This document shows, in pieces, positions 1-14,753 of a stretch of DNA of 26,215 nucleotides. The notes beneath the pieces are model-generated. The model did no database searches. It saw only the letters and a list, made by a program, of their open reading frames with translations, and was not told the origin of the DNA. The number at the start of each line of letters is the position of its first letter. Position 1 is the first letter of the stretch. This stretch comes from a virus, in the IMG/VR virus record IMGVR_UViG_3300006790_000100, positions 1-26,215 of that record; one strand, given 5' to 3'. Both the position numbers and the translations under genes were made by a program.

Positions 1-165
1 AACTACATCATGTAGTATTGCTACTATCATATAGTCTTCACCTAAATGTTTTACTTGATTCATTACCCATAATGGGTGTAAGATATAAGGCTTCCCACCT
101 TTATCTGTTTGTCCAGCATGTGCAGTAGTTGCTATTTCAATAGCTCGTCCTAACATATTCATCAT
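1..165 (-). CDS. RelA/SpoT-type HD hydrolase, partial (C-terminus outside the window)
   Basis: This open frame runs off the left edge, so only the first 55 residues are visible. They contain AHAGQTDKGGKPYILHP (residues 15-31) and end in ILHDVV (50-55). This is the signature start of the HD hydrolase domain of SpoT/MESH1-like enzymes, which remove pyrophosphate from (p)ppGpp using Mn2+. Visible metal-ligand candidates are His30, His52 and Asp53; the later aspartate would lie outside the window. ATG codons at residues 1, 2 and 4 are all possible starts. Unlike its neighbours the gene lacks the CTTATCAATTATG-like leader; its start follows an A-rich stretch. Small stand-alone hydrolases of this family are found in phages and bacteria. 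Whether it acts on (p)ppGpp, NADPH or another nucleotide cannot be told from this fragment. The family call is strong; the substrate is inference. Confidence 0.85.
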   Translation of the reverse strand, partial: MMNMLGRAIEIATTAHAGQTDKGGKPYILHPLWVMNQVKHLGEDYMIVAILHDVV

Positions 166-581: not shown

Positions 582-779
582 TTAATCTTCACCTTCAATA
601 TGATTGAATACTCCTCTACAAACCAATACATTTTCAAGTTCATATATACCACATGTTATACATGCTTGTTCTTCAGTATCAAATAGATTAATTTTATTTT
701 CATTATCTTTAAAGTAATCCATTGTATTAAGATCTATAATAAAGTATTTATCTACTGCATTTTTATTTTGATTTTTCAT
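582..779 (-). CDS. Small hypothetical protein, 65 aa
   Basis: I do not recognise the family. The protein is acidic and soluble-looking, with no membrane segment. Its C-terminal half, DTEEQACITCGIYELE followed by VLVCRGVFNHIE, has three cysteines, two of them in a CxxC pair, that could bind metal or be fortuitous. The start at 779 is supported by the leader TTTAAATTTATCAACTATG, which resembles those of five other leftward genes. The stop is followed directly by motif M2. A competing plus-strand frame (426-686) lacks such a leader and has an unnatural composition. Confidence 0.6.
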   Translation of the reverse strand: MKNQNKNAVDKYFIIDLNTMDYFKDNENKINLFDTEEQACITCGIYELENVLVCRGVFNHIEGED

Positions 780-796
780 AGTTGATAAATTTAAAA

Positions 797-879
797 AACA
801 ACCAAGAGGTGACGTCCTTTACTCCCGTTTTTTGTTAATTATCTCTATATGATTGATGATTGGATAAAACTTGGTTGTT
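797..879. repeat. 10-bp inverted repeat with a 63-base interior
   Basis: AACAACCAAG (797-806) pairs perfectly with CTTGGTTGTT (870-879). The interior carries the palindrome GACGTC inside an AGG..CCT context near 807-818. The element lies just upstream of the 65-residue gene on the minus strand and may be its folded leader. Confidence 0.45.
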
Positions 880-881
880 GT

Positions 882-920
882 ATGATATTATTGAGACATT
901 TTTATGGCGAATAATATCAT
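882..920 (-). other. 11-bp perfect hairpin
   Basis: ATGATATTATT (882-892) is complementary to AATAATATCAT (910-920) with a 17-base loop. No T-tract follows on the minus strand, so it is not a classic terminator. It overlaps the end of the 20-residue frame. Confidence 0.45.
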
Positions 921-950
921 TAATATAAATAATAGTGTTACTCCTCCCAT
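888..950 (-). CDS. Possible 20-residue membrane microprotein
   Basis: The translation is MGGVTLLFILMILFAIKMSQ, almost entirely one hydrophobic helix with a lysine near its end. It starts ten bases after the stop of the 38-residue gene, so the two could be translated together. An 11-bp hairpin, ATGATATTATT (882-892) with AATAATATCAT (910-920), overlaps its 3' end. Short hydrophobic frames arise easily in AT-rich DNA, so this is tentative. Confidence 0.3.
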   Translation of the reverse strand: MGGVTLLFILMILFAIKMSQ

Positions 951-960
951 GTTAATAGAT

Positions 961-1077
961 TTATAGCATCATTGGAACAATATACATACTGTCTAATGAT
1001 AGTGTTATTATTGTGGCATATACATAGTCTAACCATGTATCACCTTTAAAGTTTGGTATTATTGATAATGTAATCAT
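961..1077 (-). CDS. Small membrane-type protein, 38 aa
   Basis: The frame encodes an N-terminus MITLSIIPNFKGDTW and then a hydrophobic stretch (LDYVYATIITLSLDSMYIV). It carries the module's start leader (TTAAAACTTATCAATTATG), which is the main reason for calling it real. A terminator-like hairpin (1102-1134) lies just upstream and its T-rich tail runs into this leader, so the gene may be controlled by attenuation. The function is unknown; a small host-membrane-directed peptide is one possibility. Confidence 0.5.
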   Translation of the reverse strand: MITLSIIPNFKGDTWLDYVYATIITLSLDSMYIVPMML

Positions 1078-1101
1078 AATTGATAAGTTTTAATTAATAA
1101 A

Positions 1102-1134
1102 ATAAAAGCTCCAACAGTCTGCTAGAGCTTTTAT
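1102..1134 (-). terminator. Intrinsic terminator/attenuator, leftward
   Basis: ATAAAAGCTC (1102-1111) and GAGCTTTTAT (1125-1134) form a perfect 10-bp stem with a 13-base loop. On the minus strand it is followed by TTTATTAATT, a fair T-rich tail. It sits between motif M3 and the 38-residue gene, so it could end transcripts from the 42-residue gene or attenuate the gene below it. Confidence 0.65.
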
Positions 1135-1216
1135 ACCTACAACTACTCTTCAGCGTGTTACATCTATCTATCGTTGGTCGAGCCTAAGATATGATGTGTT
1201 ATAGGATTAGTATTTT

Positions 1217-1231
1217 ATTCGGTTGTTAAAA
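1217..1231 (-). repeat. Recurrent motif copy M3
   Basis: On the minus strand this is TTTTAACAACCGAAT, followed by AAAATA. It starts five bases after the stop of the 42-residue gene. It shares with M2 a GATTAA stop context and a C-rich spacer (CCCCC here, CTCC there). Confidence 0.55.
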
Positions 1232-1236
1232 GGGGG

Positions 1237-1365
1237 TTAATCTCTTATTTCTTTACCACATCTAAGACATACATGATTATAAAATACTGTATATGTTTTA
1301 GTATAATATATGTCAGCTTCTGTATACCATTTATGTCCAAATATTCTACATATTAGTTTTTTCAT
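1237..1365 (-). CDS. Small Cys protein resembling DUF1660 (MKKLICRIFGHKW type), 42 aa
   Basis: The translation begins MKKLICRIFGHKWYTEA and ends VCLRCGKEIRD. The pattern C..FGHKW followed by CxxCG is typical of a very small phage protein family (DUF1660-like), likely a mini zinc-ribbon with ligands Cys6, His11 and the CxxC pair. The function of that family is unknown to me. The start at 1365 has the module leader (TTTAAACTTATCAATTATG). The stop is followed by motif M3. Upstream lies the folded region 1403-1540. The gene is too short for most gene callers. Confidence 0.7.
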   Translation of the reverse strand: MKKLICRIFGHKWYTEADIYYTKTYTVFYNHVCLRCGKEIRD

Positions 1366-1402
1366 AATTGATAAGTTTAAAGTTAAATAAGTTAGTATTT
1401 AC

Positions 1403-1540
1403 AAAGAACTCTTACAAGGTTGCTATCCTTCGGCTTATCTAATAAAAGGTACAGTCTAAAAAGTTTGAAGGTAATTACTCCTTCTTCACGCACCACTGAA
1501 ATATTTATTTTTATTTACCAGCATTGGATAAGAGTTCTTT
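1403..1540 (-). ncRNA. Putative structured RNA closed by a 12-bp stem
   Basis: AAAGAACTCTTA (1403-1414) is the exact complement of TAAGAGTTCTTT (1529-1540). The interior has a palindromic GGTAATTACTCC segment near 1470-1482. Like the next intergenic region it contains CTTCGGCT and CACGCACC on the plus strand. The region starts at the stop codon of the 68-residue gene and ends before the leader of the 42-residue gene. A folded RNA, or an intercistronic processing element, fits. No known family is recognised. Confidence 0.45.
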
Positions 1541-1745
1541 AATTGTTTTTTTGAATAACAATAGCTTCTGGAGTTTTATCTATTGATTTAATATCTCCAG
1601 CATAATGTGTTACTGTTACTTGATATAATATTGAATTGTTTAATTCATATTTATACTCAACACCACAACAACCACATGAATTAAAGTGACAGTATGATTC
1701 ATTGTTTATCATATGAATTGCTTCAATAGGTGATAGTTTTTCCAT
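1539..1745 (-). CDS. Small Cys-rich hypothetical protein, 68 aa
   Basis: The start chosen is the ATG at 1745 (MEKLSPIEAIHMINNES), preceded by the leader TTTTAAACCTATCAATCATG. An upstream ATG at 1799 would lie inside a hairpin and add a low-complexity extension. Residues 18-26 read YCHFNSCGCCG, a cluster of His and four Cys that could bind a metal ion. The rest looks like a small beta sheet (YKYELNNSILYQVTVTHYAG). No family is recognised. Its stop overlaps by two bases the 3' arm of the 1403-1540 inverted repeat. Confidence 0.6.
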   Translation of the reverse strand: MEKLSPIEAIHMINNESYCHFNSCGCCGVEYKYELNNSILYQVTVTHYAGDIKSIDKTPEAIVIQKNN

Positions 1746-1769
1746 GATTGATAGGTTTAAAATTAAAAT

Positions 1770-1797
1770 GATAGTCTTCTGTTCCAAGGTGACTATC
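1770..1797 (-). other. 7-bp hairpin upstream of the 68-aa gene
   Basis: GATAGTC (1770-1776) pairs with GACTATC (1791-1797), 25 bases upstream of the start leader on the minus strand. It may be a leader fold. Further right (1800-1890) GC-richer segments include GCGTG/CACGC pairing near 1842-1881. No gene is seen there. Confidence 0.4.
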
Positions 1798-1889
1798 AAC
1801 CCGATTGCCCAGAAGGGTCAATTTGGACTATGAGTAAACATAGCGTGTGTCACCACATCTTACTTCGGCTCTATGGCACGCACCTCTCG

Positions 1890-1982
1890 TTGTACCTAAG
1901 AGAATCGAACTCTTATAATACCATTGGTATAATATGTATTAGCTATTAATATTACTATTGATTAGTTTTTAATCAAGATACA
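1890..1982 (-). tRNA. tRNA-like element, degenerate (class II shape)
   Basis: On the minus strand the ends pair over 7 bp: TGTATCT (1982-1976) with AGGTACA (1897-1891), one G-U. A textbook T-arm is present: AAGAG, loop TTCGATT, CTCTT (1914-1898). A 5-bp long-variable-arm hairpin, ATACC AAT GGTAT, lies at 1930-1918. The total is about 92 bases, right for a Leu/Ser/Tyr-type tRNA. However, the D-loop has no GG and I cannot place a 7-base anticodon loop with U33. It may be a decayed tRNA, a tRNA mimic or another folded RNA. No CCA is encoded. Confidence 0.3.
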
Positions 1983-2007
1983 AACAACCCAGAAATAGGC
2001 TGTTTGT
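1980..2007 (-). other. 10-bp hairpin
   Basis: ACAAACAACC (1980-1989) faces GGCTGTTTGT (1998-2007). The single mismatch is A-C on the plus strand but G-U on the minus strand, so the stem is complete only in a leftward transcript. It directly abuts the tRNA-like element. Confidence 0.45.
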
Positions 2008-2079
2008 TTATTAGTAATCACATTTCTGTTACCAAGTATGTGATAAAACTCTGATTCTTAGTCAATTACCTCAAATACC

Positions 2080-2151
2080 TTAAGCATTTGGGTTGATAAT
2101 GTTATCAAGAGTTGTAAGAACACCATCAACAATAATAAAATGTCTCTTCAT
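2080..2151 (-). CDS. Possible 23-residue peptide
   Basis: The frame reads MKRHFIIVDGVLTTLDNIIN and ends PNA. The only real support is the start context, AATCTATCAATCATG, which matches the leaders of the other leftward genes. It could be a tiny gene, a leader peptide for the region below, or the remnant of a longer gene. About 330 bases of folded, gene-free sequence follow on the minus strand. Confidence 0.3.
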   Translation of the reverse strand: MKRHFIIVDGVLTTLDNIINPNA

Positions 2152-2235
2152 GATTGATAGATTGATTGGTTAATAAATATATGATTGGTAAATGTATTTG
2201 ATTTTATTATTCGTTAGTGCAACGAAAAAGAATAA

Positions 2236-2267
2236 AACCACAACACACACTCCCGTGTGCTGTGGTT
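2236..2267 (-). terminator. Strong intrinsic terminator of the 95-aa gene
   Basis: On the minus strand AACCACAGCACAC pairs with GTGTGTTGTGGTT: 13 bp with one G-U and a 6-base loop. TTTATTCTTTTT follows. It begins six bases after the stop codon of the 95-residue gene. Leftward genes beyond it therefore need their own promoters. Confidence 0.85.
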
Positions 2268-2272
2268 CAGTG

Positions 2273-2560
2273 CTACTTCTTGAAAGGAGAAGCAGTGATT
2301 TCGCCAGAGCTGAATGCAAGCTTCAGTCTAGTTTCACCCTCTGCGTTCTGCGTCTCAACAACGACCATTGTATCCAATGGTAAGTCTGTGATGTGCTGAC
2401 CAGCACTAACTTTCTTACCAGCTTCAACACCAAAGTAGATGTTTTCTGCTTCACCATCATCATTGATGAATGTGATGTATGGATAATCGTTCTTGTTTAG
2501 ACGAACAACGCTTTGCGCTTCAATCTTTCTTTCTGCATAGAATTTCTCTAATGATTGCAT
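2273..2560 (-). CDS. Conserved-looking hypothetical protein, 95 aa, separate transcription unit
   Basis: The start at 2560 (MQSLEKFYAERKIEAQSVV) is preferred over the upstream ATGs because it has the leader TTAAAACTTATCTATATG. The N-terminal 20 residues are helical and charged; the rest alternates in beta fashion, with SAGQHITDLPLDTMVVVETQ. No membrane segment, signal peptide or known motif is seen. Its base composition stands out: 2341-2400 is 48% G+C, against 22% in 2161-2220. It has its own terminator, a long structured leader and a strong upstream promoter, so it looks like a highly expressed single-gene unit. The function is unknown; an early nucleic-acid-binding or host-takeover role would be a guess. 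Confidence 0.8.
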   Translation of the reverse strand: MQSLEKFYAERKIEAQSVVRLNKNDYPYITFINDDGEAENIYFGVEAGKKVSAGQHITDLPLDTMVVVETQNAEGETRLKLAFSSGEITASPFKK

Positions 2561-2587
2561 ATAGATAAGTTTTAAATTAAACATAGC

Positions 2588-3059: not shown

Positions 3060-3545
3060 ATGGGAATTGTTAAAAAACAACAACTAAAAGAAACCTTGGG
3101 TACAGATAAGCTGGATTATGTACTAGTTACTGAAAAGGGATCTGATGAACTTAAAAGAATTAATAAGACTACTTTTGATTCAGCATATGATAATAGTAGT
3201 ACTTCACAATCAGAACTTACTCTTACTCCAAAAGGGTCAGTTACACAAGCTACTAATATAGGTACAGATGTTACTCTTAATTCTAGACAAGGTAAGATTA
3301 CTACTGTAAGTAATCCAAATATTGCTGCTGGAGCAGGAGCTTTATTTGAAATGAATAACTCTGAAATTGGTGCAGATTCTATTGTATTGTTTACAGAACA
3401 TATGACAGGTACATGGACAGGTGGAGATAGAAACTTATCTTTTGCATATCAGTCTTATGCTGGAGGATGTTCTATATCTATTGTGAATAATCACGCAACT
3501 ACAACACTCTCAGATGATATTGTATTTCATTTTGTAGTATTATAA
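3060..3545 (+). CDS. Virion-associated beta-domain protein (putative), 161 aa
   Basis: The first 50 residues are charged (MGIVKKQQLKETLGTDKLDY...). From about residue 56 a beta-rich domain follows: TPKGSVTQATNIGTDVTLNS, then GKITTVS, FEMNNSEIGADSIVL and a closing DIVFHFVVL. This 'sVTQaTnigTdVtLNs' pattern is common in small structural and fibre-associated proteins of marine and environmental phages, so a virion accessory or adhesin role is inferred. The gene is alone between promoters P1 and P2, far from the other virion genes. The start follows AAATAAAATAATATATT, typical of this genome. The role in the particle is unproven. Confidence 0.65.
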   Translation: MGIVKKQQLKETLGTDKLDYVLVTEKGSDELKRINKTTFDSAYDNSSTSQSELTLTPKGSVTQATNIGTDVTLNSRQGKITTVSNPNIAAGAGALFEMNNSEIGADSIVLFTEHMTGTWTGGDRNLSFAYQSYAGGCSISIVNNHATTTLSDDIVFHFVVL

Positions 3546-12076: not shown

Positions 12077-13252
12077 ATGAGTAAAGACGGAGACAATTTG
12101 TTTGGGGACTTTGATTTCAACTTAGAAGAAGCTGTAATCAATACTGGAGAAAGTACTCCCCCAACACAGACGAAAGAAGAAACAACAGTAGATACACAAG
12201 AAGAAGAAATAGTATCAACGTCTACTGATGAAACCCAAAACCAACCTAACGAGGATGGTTTAGTTGATACAGATTTATTTGTGAAAACCTCTGACACCAA
12301 CGAGACTGATAATAAGACCACTTCTTCCACTACAGAAGATGACAGTAGTGGTTCTTCTTCGTCTCCTCTTTCTTCTGGTCTTGTTTCAGCTCTCGGTGCA
12401 GAGGGCTTCATTAACGTGACTGAAGAAGAATTAGAAGGTGTTGAAGATGTTGCTCAATTCTTACGTGATAAGTTAAATGAATCTATTAACGAAAAAGTTA
12501 AAGGTGGTTTAACTGAAAAACAACAAAAAGCGTTAGAAGCATTTGAAAAAGGAGTTCCTATTGAGAATTATGTAAATTCCAACGCTAGAGAAGAGTCTTA
12601 TACACAAATAAGTAATGAACAGATTGAACAAAGAGTTGACTGGCAACAAGAACTAGTTAGGAGAATGTTAATCCAAACTGGTTTCTCAGAAGAAGATGCT
12701 GCAGATACTATTAACACCTATAAAGAAGTAGGTGGAGATAAACTAAAAACTAAAGCAATTGAAGCCAGAGACAAACTTATTAAATATGAGCAGGCTTATA
12801 AACTTCAATTAGAAGAACAGGCTGAAGCTCAAATGAAATCTTTAGAAGAAGAAAGACAGAATAAGTTAAAATCAACTGAGGAATTTATCAACTCTAAAAA
12901 TGAAATTATAACTGGTATTCCACTTACTGATACAGTAAAGAAAAACATTTATAATACCATGACTACACCAGTAGGTGAAATTGATGGTGCTAAAGTAAAT
13001 GCTATTGGTAAGTTAAGAGCAGAAAACCCAGAAAAGTTTGATATGATGATTGCATATTATTACAACTTGGGAATGTTTAATGAAATACCAGATTTTAGTA
13101 AAATAAGAAAAGCTGCAGATGCAAAAGCTGCAAGTGGACTTAACGAACTGCTTAAAGAAGGTACAGGATTCTTAAAATCTGATAAACCTAAAAATGGTGG
13201 AGGTAATAAGTCAGGTTCATTTGATGATGCACTTAACAGCTTTTTAGATTAA
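12077..13252 (+). CDS. Putative head scaffolding protein, 391 aa
   Basis: The gene lies between portal and major capsid genes, the standard place for a scaffold. The N-terminal 110 residues are acidic and low in complexity (Glu, Thr, Ser, Asp), for example VDTQEEEIVSTSTDETQ and SSTTEDDSSGSSSSPLSSG. The middle is helical and coiled-coil-like (LQLEEQAEAQMKSLEEERQN, about 245-265). The C-terminus is Lys/Gly-rich and ends DDALNSFLD. This build fits a transient internal scaffold. No protease motif is visible in it or in neighbouring genes. The start context is ACTTAAACAATG, like that of the portal gene. Confidence 0.7.
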   Translation: MSKDGDNLFGDFDFNLEEAVINTGESTPPTQTKEETTVDTQEEEIVSTSTDETQNQPNEDGLVDTDLFVKTSDTNETDNKTTSSTTEDDSSGSSSSPLSSGLVSALGAEGFINVTEEELEGVEDVAQFLRDKLNESINEKVKGGLTEKQQKALEAFEKGVPIENYVNSNAREESYTQISNEQIEQRVDWQQELVRRMLIQTGFSEEDAADTINTYKEVGGDKLKTKAIEARDKLIKYEQAYKLQLEEQAEAQMKSLEEERQNKLKSTEEFINSKNEIITGIPLTDTVKKNIYNTMTTPVGEIDGAKVNAIGKLRAENPEKFDMMIAYYYNLGMFNEIPDFSKIRKAADAKAASGLNELLKEGTGFLKSDKPKNGGGNKSGSFDDALNSFLD

Positions 13253-13280: not shown

Positions 13281-14753
13281 ATGCCAAAGATTAGTAACCT
13301 TCAAATGACAGAAGCTAAGTCATGGGCAGGTCTTACAGATAAGAACCACTTAGGTTCTATCTTTGCTACTAAGCCTCAAGCTGCTAGTAAGCTAATGACT
13401 AGAATTGCTCAAACAAACTTCGGTCTGGATTTAGATTCATTCTTGGATCAATTTACACCAAAGTACTTAGAAACTGATGATGATTTTACTTGGGACTTAG
13501 TAGGTTCTGGTAAAAAGAATGTACCTCTAGTAGAAGCTAGAATTAATGGTACTGCTATTACTGCTGCTTCAGAAGCAGGTAAAGCATTCACAGAATTTGA
13601 ATTGGTTTTCCCAGAGCAATGGTTTACTGACGAACACGTTATTGTAGGTCACAAAAATGAGAGATACCAAATGCAAATTCAAGATAACCCAACTCCAGAT
13701 GGAACTAACTGGGTTTATCGAGTTAAACTATTAACTGGTGACGAAGATCTATTTGTACCTTATGAAGAACTTACTGCAGGTAAGAGATTCTCAAAAGACT
13801 TCTCTTTAGTTGAGCAAACATTGTCGAAAAAAGGTGGTGGGATTAACTTCACATCTCCATTCACAATGAGAAATGCATTTACTATGATTAGAATGGAGCA
13901 TACTACTCCTGGTAACATGATTAACAGACCACTTGCATTCCCTTGGTTGGGTGATGATGGTCAACAATATGCTACTTGGACACAGTATGAAGATTTTGAA
14001 TTTGAAAAACAATTCAGAATGGAAAAGAACAGATTGATGATGTTCTCTCGTTCAAATAGAAAAGATGACGGTACTTATCAAAATACTGGTAAGTCTGGAC
14101 ACATTAAGAAACAAGGTGCTGGTCTTAGACAACAAATGGAGTCTGCTAACACTGTTGCTTATAACGCATTTAACATTGATTTCTTACTTGACGTATTAGT
14201 TGAACTTTCTGAGGGGAAACTACCTACTGATAAGAGAGAATTTGTAATGTTAACTGGTGAGCGTGGTGCTATTCAGTTCCATAAAGCTATTGAGAACTAT
14301 TCTCAATTGTTTACTCCAGCTAGAGATGATGAAAGAATTTACACTACTTCAAAAGATGGAGTTAAGAAACCTATGGGTTACGGTGGACAATTCGTTGAGT
14401 ACATGGGGCCTCAAAACATCAGAGTTACTGTAGCTACTCATTCATTGTATGATGATAGAGAGAGAAATAAAGAACTTCACCCTTCTGGTGGTGTTGCTGA
14501 ATCTTACAGATACGATATCATGGACGTTGGTACTTCAGATGGAGAACCTAACATCAGAAAAGTATATGTTAAAGGGTCAGACGATATCATGGGTTACGAA
14601 CCAGGTTTGAGAAATCCTTGGTCTGCTAACGGTGAAAGAAGTCTTATGGCTCACTCAACTGATGGGTATACTGTACACAGAGCTACATGTTGTGGTATTA
14701 TGGTGAAAGATCCATCTAGAACTGCAACTTTGTTACCGAATATTCTTGTGTAA
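13281..14753 (+). CDS. Major capsid protein
   Basis: At 490 residues, placed after portal and scaffold, this is the expected HK97-fold shell protein. The start MPKISNLQMTEAKSWAGLTD, the segment AASKLMTRIAQTNFGLDLDS and the late segment SYRYDIMDVGTSDGEPNI with VKGSDDIMGYEPGLRNPW match what I recall of capsid proteins of crAss-like and related gut or aquatic Bacteroidota phages. There is no obvious N-terminal delta domain or cleavage signal. Codon use is richer in C-ending codons than in neighbours, as expected of a highly expressed gene. It is followed by a strong hairpin (14762-14798), which probably trims or ends the transcript. Confidence 0.88.
   Translation: MPKISNLQMTEAKSWAGLTDKNHLGSIFATKPQAASKLMTRIAQTNFGLDLDSFLDQFTPKYLETDDDFTWDLVGSGKKNVPLVEARINGTAITAASEAGKAFTEFELVFPEQWFTDEHVIVGHKNERYQMQIQDNPTPDGTNWVYRVKLLTGDEDLFVPYEELTAGKRFSKDFSLVEQTLSKKGGGINFTSPFTMRNAFTMIRMEHTTPGNMINRPLAFPWLGDDGQQYATWTQYEDFEFEKQFRMEKNRLMMFSRSNRKDDGTYQNTGKSGHIKKQGAGLRQQMESANTVAYNAFNIDFLLDVLVELSEGKLPTDKREFVMLTGERGAIQFHKAIENYSQLFTPARDDERIYTTSKDGVKKPMGYGGQFVEYMGPQNIRVTVATHSLYDDRERNKELHPSGGVAESYRYDIMDVGTSDGEPNIRKVYVKGSDDIMGYEPGLRNPWSANGERSLMAHSTDGYTVHRATCCGIMVKDPSRTATLLPNILV

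Follow-up and report, generated by a model that had tools for sequence, protein, structure and literature searches.

A start-locked leader shared by six leftward micro-genes of a crAss-like phage fragment is most likely a Bacteroidota-type initiation signal

Six leftward micro-genes of a virus contig carry an almost identical leader of about 16 letters immediately 5' of ATG. We favour, with a probability of roughly 0.7, the reading that this leader is a translation-initiation region (TIR) of the SD-less Bacteroidota type, elaborated by the phage. The contig (IMGVR_UViG_3300006790_000100, positions 1 to 26,215) was analysed over its whole length of 26,215 bases, referred to here as the window. 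Start-codon choice in the SD-less Bacteroidota is only partly understood, and a start sequence that a phage has standardised across unrelated genes shows the letters that matter; standardised leaders are also natural start parts.

The leader and its genes

The form common to the leftward micro-genes is AAAYYTATCAAYY-ATG (Table 1). Near-identical sequence had been reported in the initial annotation before the ATGs at 779, 1077, 1365, 1745, 2151 and 2560, and we confirmed this for all six, the copy at 2560 being a variant one base shorter. The frame at 2560 could also be read from an in-frame ATG at 2584, which lies 5' of the leader, and PHROG and Pfam searches with this 95-aa gene (2273..2560) gave no match. 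The leftward gene at 165 is without the leader. Homology of the 23-aa frame to a 27-aa frame of the related contig L009 was considered and rejected, as the two gave no alignment.

Table 1. Leaders, micro-genes and the intergenic RNA of the leftward block (window coordinates)
Feature	Position	Strand	Remarks
Leader AAATTTATCAACT	780..792	-	Precedes ATG 779
Micro-gene, 65 aa	582..779	-	Weak sub-threshold DUF7953 match
Leader AAACTTATCAATT	1078..1090	-	Precedes ATG 1077; about 11 nt past hairpin 1102-1134
Micro-gene, 38 aa	961..1077	-	Sequence and frame length
Leader AAACTTATCAATT	1366..1378	-	Precedes ATG 1365; surrounding 36 nt 97% identical to L009 730-695
Micro-gene, 42 aa, DUF1660 family	1237..1365	-	Pfam E 2e-5, 25.5 bits against a cut-off of 21.4
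Leader AAACCTATCAATC	1746..1758	-	Precedes ATG 1745
Micro-gene, 68 aa	1539..1745	-	ATG frame; the ORF list starts it at a TTG upstream
Leader CAATCTATCAATC	2152..2164	-	Precedes ATG 2151
Micro-gene, 23 aa	2080..2151	-	Sequence and frame length
Leader AAACTTATCTAT, one base shorter	2561..2572	-	Precedes ATG 2560; outside the scan matches
Gene, 95 aa, first leftward gene beside the divergent region	2273..2560	-	Open reading frame
Intergenic RNA, 137 nt, terminator-like hairpin	1099..1235	-	96% identity to L009 416-280 (-); fold z -3.55

Genomic setting

By sequence resemblance the window is a Crassvirales fragment, because its capsid protein (13281-14753) shows 43-44% identity over 99% to crAss-like phages of Bacteroides and the human gut. 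Terminase, portal and capsid genes lie in the rightward block, which begins at 3060. By position, the leftward genes below 2584 are the counterpart of the early blocks of phi14:2 and crAss001. The early block of phi14:2 is transcribed by its virion RNA polymerase (PMC10136315), and the corresponding block of crAss001 is the first to be expressed (PMC8375218). Synteny with these two phages leads us to infer early expression of the leftward block, whose left end is cut off in this fragmentary contig. The host is presumably a flavobacterium-like member of the Bacteroidota. Positions 1-165 (-) hold the N-terminal piece of an HD_4-domain protein interrupted by the contig end, with a Pfam match under the cut-off.

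Conservation around the start codon

The window was scanned with the pattern AAAYYTATCAAYYATG, allowing up to two mismatches. Six matches were obtained where 0.82 were expected, a count reached in 0 of 100 shuffles, and five of them were listed leftward ATGs, each with at most one mismatch. With the ATG no longer required, all five leftward copies of the core still ran into an ATG and a frame; the remaining core match, with one mismatch at 12881 on the plus strand, lay inside a gene and had no ATG after it. The same held for 2 of 2 core copies in L009 and for 8 of 8 coding-strand copies in contig L130, which also had one stray one-mismatch match on the opposite strand. An open frame followed each intergenic leader copy, both in the window and L009 and among the 8 copies of the more distant G001. 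The initial annotation had named leaders equally often lacking a frame as the result that would speak against it, and this was not what we observed in the window, L009 or L130.

A motif-free test was also performed, in which pairwise identity at a fixed distance from the ATG was compared with shuffles of each sequence. Mean pairwise identity of the six leaders over -20..-1 was 0.60, against 0.37 when shuffled (z 8.6, shuffle z-scores here and below taking related genes as independent). Addition of the gene at 165 to the six gave z 7.1, and the rightward genes of the window z 2.1. Four L009 genes reached z 3.9 and 16 genes of G001, with starts taken from open frames and not from annotation, z 19.6. 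Late genes, genes past the G001 cluster, the first early and late genes of phi14:2 and the early genes of elemoA all fell within z 0 to 2.3.

In the window six and the eight G001 copies, conservation was limited to -20..+12 around the ATG, which is approximately the mRNA stretch under an initiating ribosome. The window six gave z 4.9 at -20..-11 and z 5.7 at -10..-1, and the G001 copies z 12.2 and z 18.7, respectively. Farther upstream, the window six showed a weak trend at -35..-21 (p about 0.03) and no conservation at -70..-36.

Two start contexts had been proposed for this genome. The leftward one stands; AAATAAA-type contexts precede 5 of the 14 rightward starts that have an intergenic gap, which makes the rightward context a tendency. 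The suggestion of a translational signal specific to the leftward genes is likewise supported within the window, where the leader is locked to the ATG, has the size of a ribosome footprint and is followed by a frame at every intergenic copy.

Leader copies in related phages

L009 (contig 3300006790_000106), with a capsid protein 80% identical to that of the window, has three more leader copies in its matching block. When the 3-kb leftward region was compared in full with L009 by BLASTN, only four pieces could be aligned: the 137-nt intergenic RNA at 96% identity, the divergent region at 78%, and two leaders, one at 97% over 36 nt and the other at 100% over 24 nt. In L009, the leader of ATG 573 shares letters with the stop codon that ends the leadered frame before it, leaving a gap of 11 nt. 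Eight copies lie in one 6-kb cluster of G001 (128 kb), where the leader before 37882 follows the upstream stop codon with a 12-nt gap. The G001 leader, TAAAACTTATCAATC, has A at -14..-11, and A-3 is present in 8/8 copies. No match to the window capsid protein was found in G001, and its terminase distantly resembles those of crAss-like and elemo phages. G004, which encodes a distant crAss-like capsid protein, contains one exact leader copy.

A different locked leader, with another spacer and the same A positions, is found in G418 (A-13 in 24/25, A-12 in 23/25 and A-3 in 22/25 starts; the z values for this set are descriptive, as the 25 starts came from open frames of a single same-strand gene cluster and were chosen once the pattern had been noticed). 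About 25 of the G418 genes at 23988-42157 (L352-L353, on the contig of L303) share this locked context, with A-14..-11 and CAATT before the ATG, often after TTCACC. Another class-specific start context was noticed by inspection in crAss001 (L214, L216), in which a run of at least seven A lies just upstream of 11/26 early or middle starts and 0/16 late starts (p 0.0018). No leader at a fixed position was seen in the first early genes of phi14:2 (z 0.0). TTAAAAC as an early leader throughout the Crassvirales, a post hoc candidate, was rejected (11/44 early against 19/120 late starts, p 0.13), and a short-query BLAST of the leader against phage records returned noise.

Occurrence in cellular genomes and other viruses

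The exact leader gave 6 matches in 199 Flavobacteriaceae genomes, against 4 control matches. With counts at chance level in these and in 196 clostridial-class genomes, an ordinary host-wide leader of this exact form was rejected. The leader is rare in hosts, and its repeated use is therefore a property of these phages. Among exact cellular copies of an 18-mer, 43 of the 59 in Bacteroidota and 3 of the 19 elsewhere begin a frame of 60 aa or longer (p 1.4e-5); the Bacteroidota copies include, by eye, those at genes for ribosomal proteins S20 and L20 and at Winogradskyella LemA-like genes. In the viral collection elsewhere, 12 of 117 exact 16-mer copies start a frame of this length, and the copies are mostly incidental.

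The leader had also been put forward as a means of finding hidden micro-genes. Since it is rare in hosts and not Crassvirales-wide, this applies only within these phages, where it marks frames as short as 23-42 aa, a size often overlooked by gene finders. They belong to the early block of crAss-like genomes, most of which has no assigned function.

Neighbouring intergenic elements

The 137-nt intergenic RNA has a stable fold, ends in a hairpin and a T run, and is independent of the leader; its counterpart in L009 has no leader after it. Two differences between the window and L009 retain pairing as G-U in the hairpin. Searches of the intergenic regions of the window for tRNA and Rfam families found none, including for the 137-nt RNA. 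The motif TTTTAACAACCGAATAAAATA occurs at 342, 576 and 1231 of the window (minus strand, motif starts) and at L009 412 (-), in each case just before an intergenic structured region, and two of the window copies directly follow a stop codon. It is possibly a promoter or processing element for the intergenic RNAs. Other viral matches to TTTAACAACCGAAT were inspected, and none lay in the same context. A T-arm-like AAGAGTTCGATTCTCTT lies in the intergenic region at about 1889-1974 (-), perhaps from a degenerate tRNA, and ARAGORN reported none there. ARAGORN did predict a tmRNA with the tag GSSVQKLAMVA in the early region of Cellulophaga phage phi14:2 (L167 4031-4500), for which no RNA gene is annotated.

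Interpretation of the leader

The leader is a real signal, and most likely one of a type already known in general terms. Work in Flavobacterium johnsoniae, of an SD-less phylum, has shown by ribosome profiling and reporter assays that A-14..-11, A-6 and A-3 raise initiation, that the -14..-11 group adjoins protein S1 and that A-6 is a graded enhancer and not obligatory (PMC6847099). Adenines at -14..-11 and at -3 are found in the window and G001 leaders, and the leaders are without a G-rich element. In the early starts of the window, A-12 and A-11 occur in 6/6, A-13 and A-3 in 5/6, and A-14 in 0.17; A-6 is likewise present in 0.17, the consensus being T-6. The leader would thus serve as the TIR of individually started early micro-genes. 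The adenines at -13..-11 would sit in the part of the mRNA that runs past ribosomal protein S1, A-3 would be a Kozak-like determinant, and the pyrimidine-rich fixed spacer between them, YYTATC, would have been standardised by this phage lineage; a leader of this composition may raise ribosome loading. The initial annotation had invoked altered ribosomes or binding of a phage factor. Altered ribosomes found no support, and a phage factor is not a required explanation, since the known Bacteroidota pattern of A-12/A-13 and A-3 covers most of the signal (PMC6847099).

Several observations count against a TIR of this type. Hosts do not standardise the exact leader, YYTATC is more fixed than the known Bacteroidota determinants require, and at -6, where A favours initiation, the leaders mostly have T. 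The spacer is not one of those determinants, and a RegA-like regulator, a host factor or a preference of S1 would each explain it. The idea that the leader is less structured than late starts was also rejected, predicted accessibility being 0.54 for both. Pairing with 16S rRNA was examined in a duplex test on the ends of fetched loci, which stand in only approximately for the 16S 3' end, and was taken as chance: a 13/14 complementarity at a Cellulophaga 16S locus was equalled by 5/60 shuffled leaders, and with Winogradskyella nothing rose above chance.

The fixed spacer would be the recognition site of a protein if the leader were an operator bound by a translational regulator of the phage, such as RegA of T4, a small protein switching early mRNAs off or on together. 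In T4, RegA and ribosomes compete for the TIRs of some 30 mRNAs (PMC3014915), and this precedent, the overlap of a class-restricted leader with the TIR in the window, and a spacer fixed beyond the needs of Bacteroidota initiation all speak for such an operator. Against it, no regulator was identified, the early region being only partly contained in the window. Nor is a phage protein needed for the copies of this leader before host genes such as the Winogradskyella LemA-like ones, or in G001, where the capsid protein shows no recognisable likeness to those of crAss-like phages. We regard an operator as unlikely. Similarly improbable is the wider proposal that a phage- or host-encoded factor recognises YYTATC and switches the early micro-gene class at translation in an SD-less host, as a RegA-like regulon of crAss-like phages.

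Identity by descent, with the leader a remnant or recombination seam of duplicated or recombining cassettes and without selected function, is slightly less probable still. The core has exactly the same letters in two copies from L009 and two from the window, as descent would have it, but the six share a fixed leader and no relatedness in their coding or upstream sequences. Moreover, apart from the leaders, only the 137-nt RNA and the divergent region of the 3-kb early region can be aligned with L009, which argues for selection. The lowest standing, slightly below descent, goes to a virion RNA polymerase promoter or initiator on crAss-like early genes, yielding leaderless or near-leaderless mRNAs. 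Its appeal lies in the synteny of the leftward block with the early blocks of phi14:2, transcribed by the virion polymerase (PMC10136315), and crAss001, and in several leaders that lie directly past terminator-like hairpins, with scant room for another promoter. However, the gaps of 11-12 nt at L009 573 and G001 37882 hardly fit separate promoters, the distance from leader to ATG varies by no more than one base, and upstream of -20 there is no conserved block, the weak trend aside. Host genes also carry the leader sequence, and the first early genes of phi14:2 lack a locked counterpart.

Comparison with known systems

Phages such as SPO1 have arrays of small early genes for host takeover, equipped with standard expression signals. 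The leftward block resembles these arrays in its numerous tiny and presumably early genes, each started on its own from a shared signal; unlike in them, the signal here is SD-less and structured intergenic RNAs separate the genes. The operators of T4 RegA (PMC3014915) offer a TIR sequence common to many mRNAs of one expression class, as here, whereas the present leader comes without a known repressor. With the Bacteroidota SD-less TIR (PMC6847099) the leader shares A-13..-11, A-3, A/U-richness, the lack of a G-rich SD-like element and a position at the ATG. In contrast to that TIR, the phage leader has nearly fixed 13 letters with YYTATC that are common to unrelated genes, mostly has T at -6, and is limited to one gene block.
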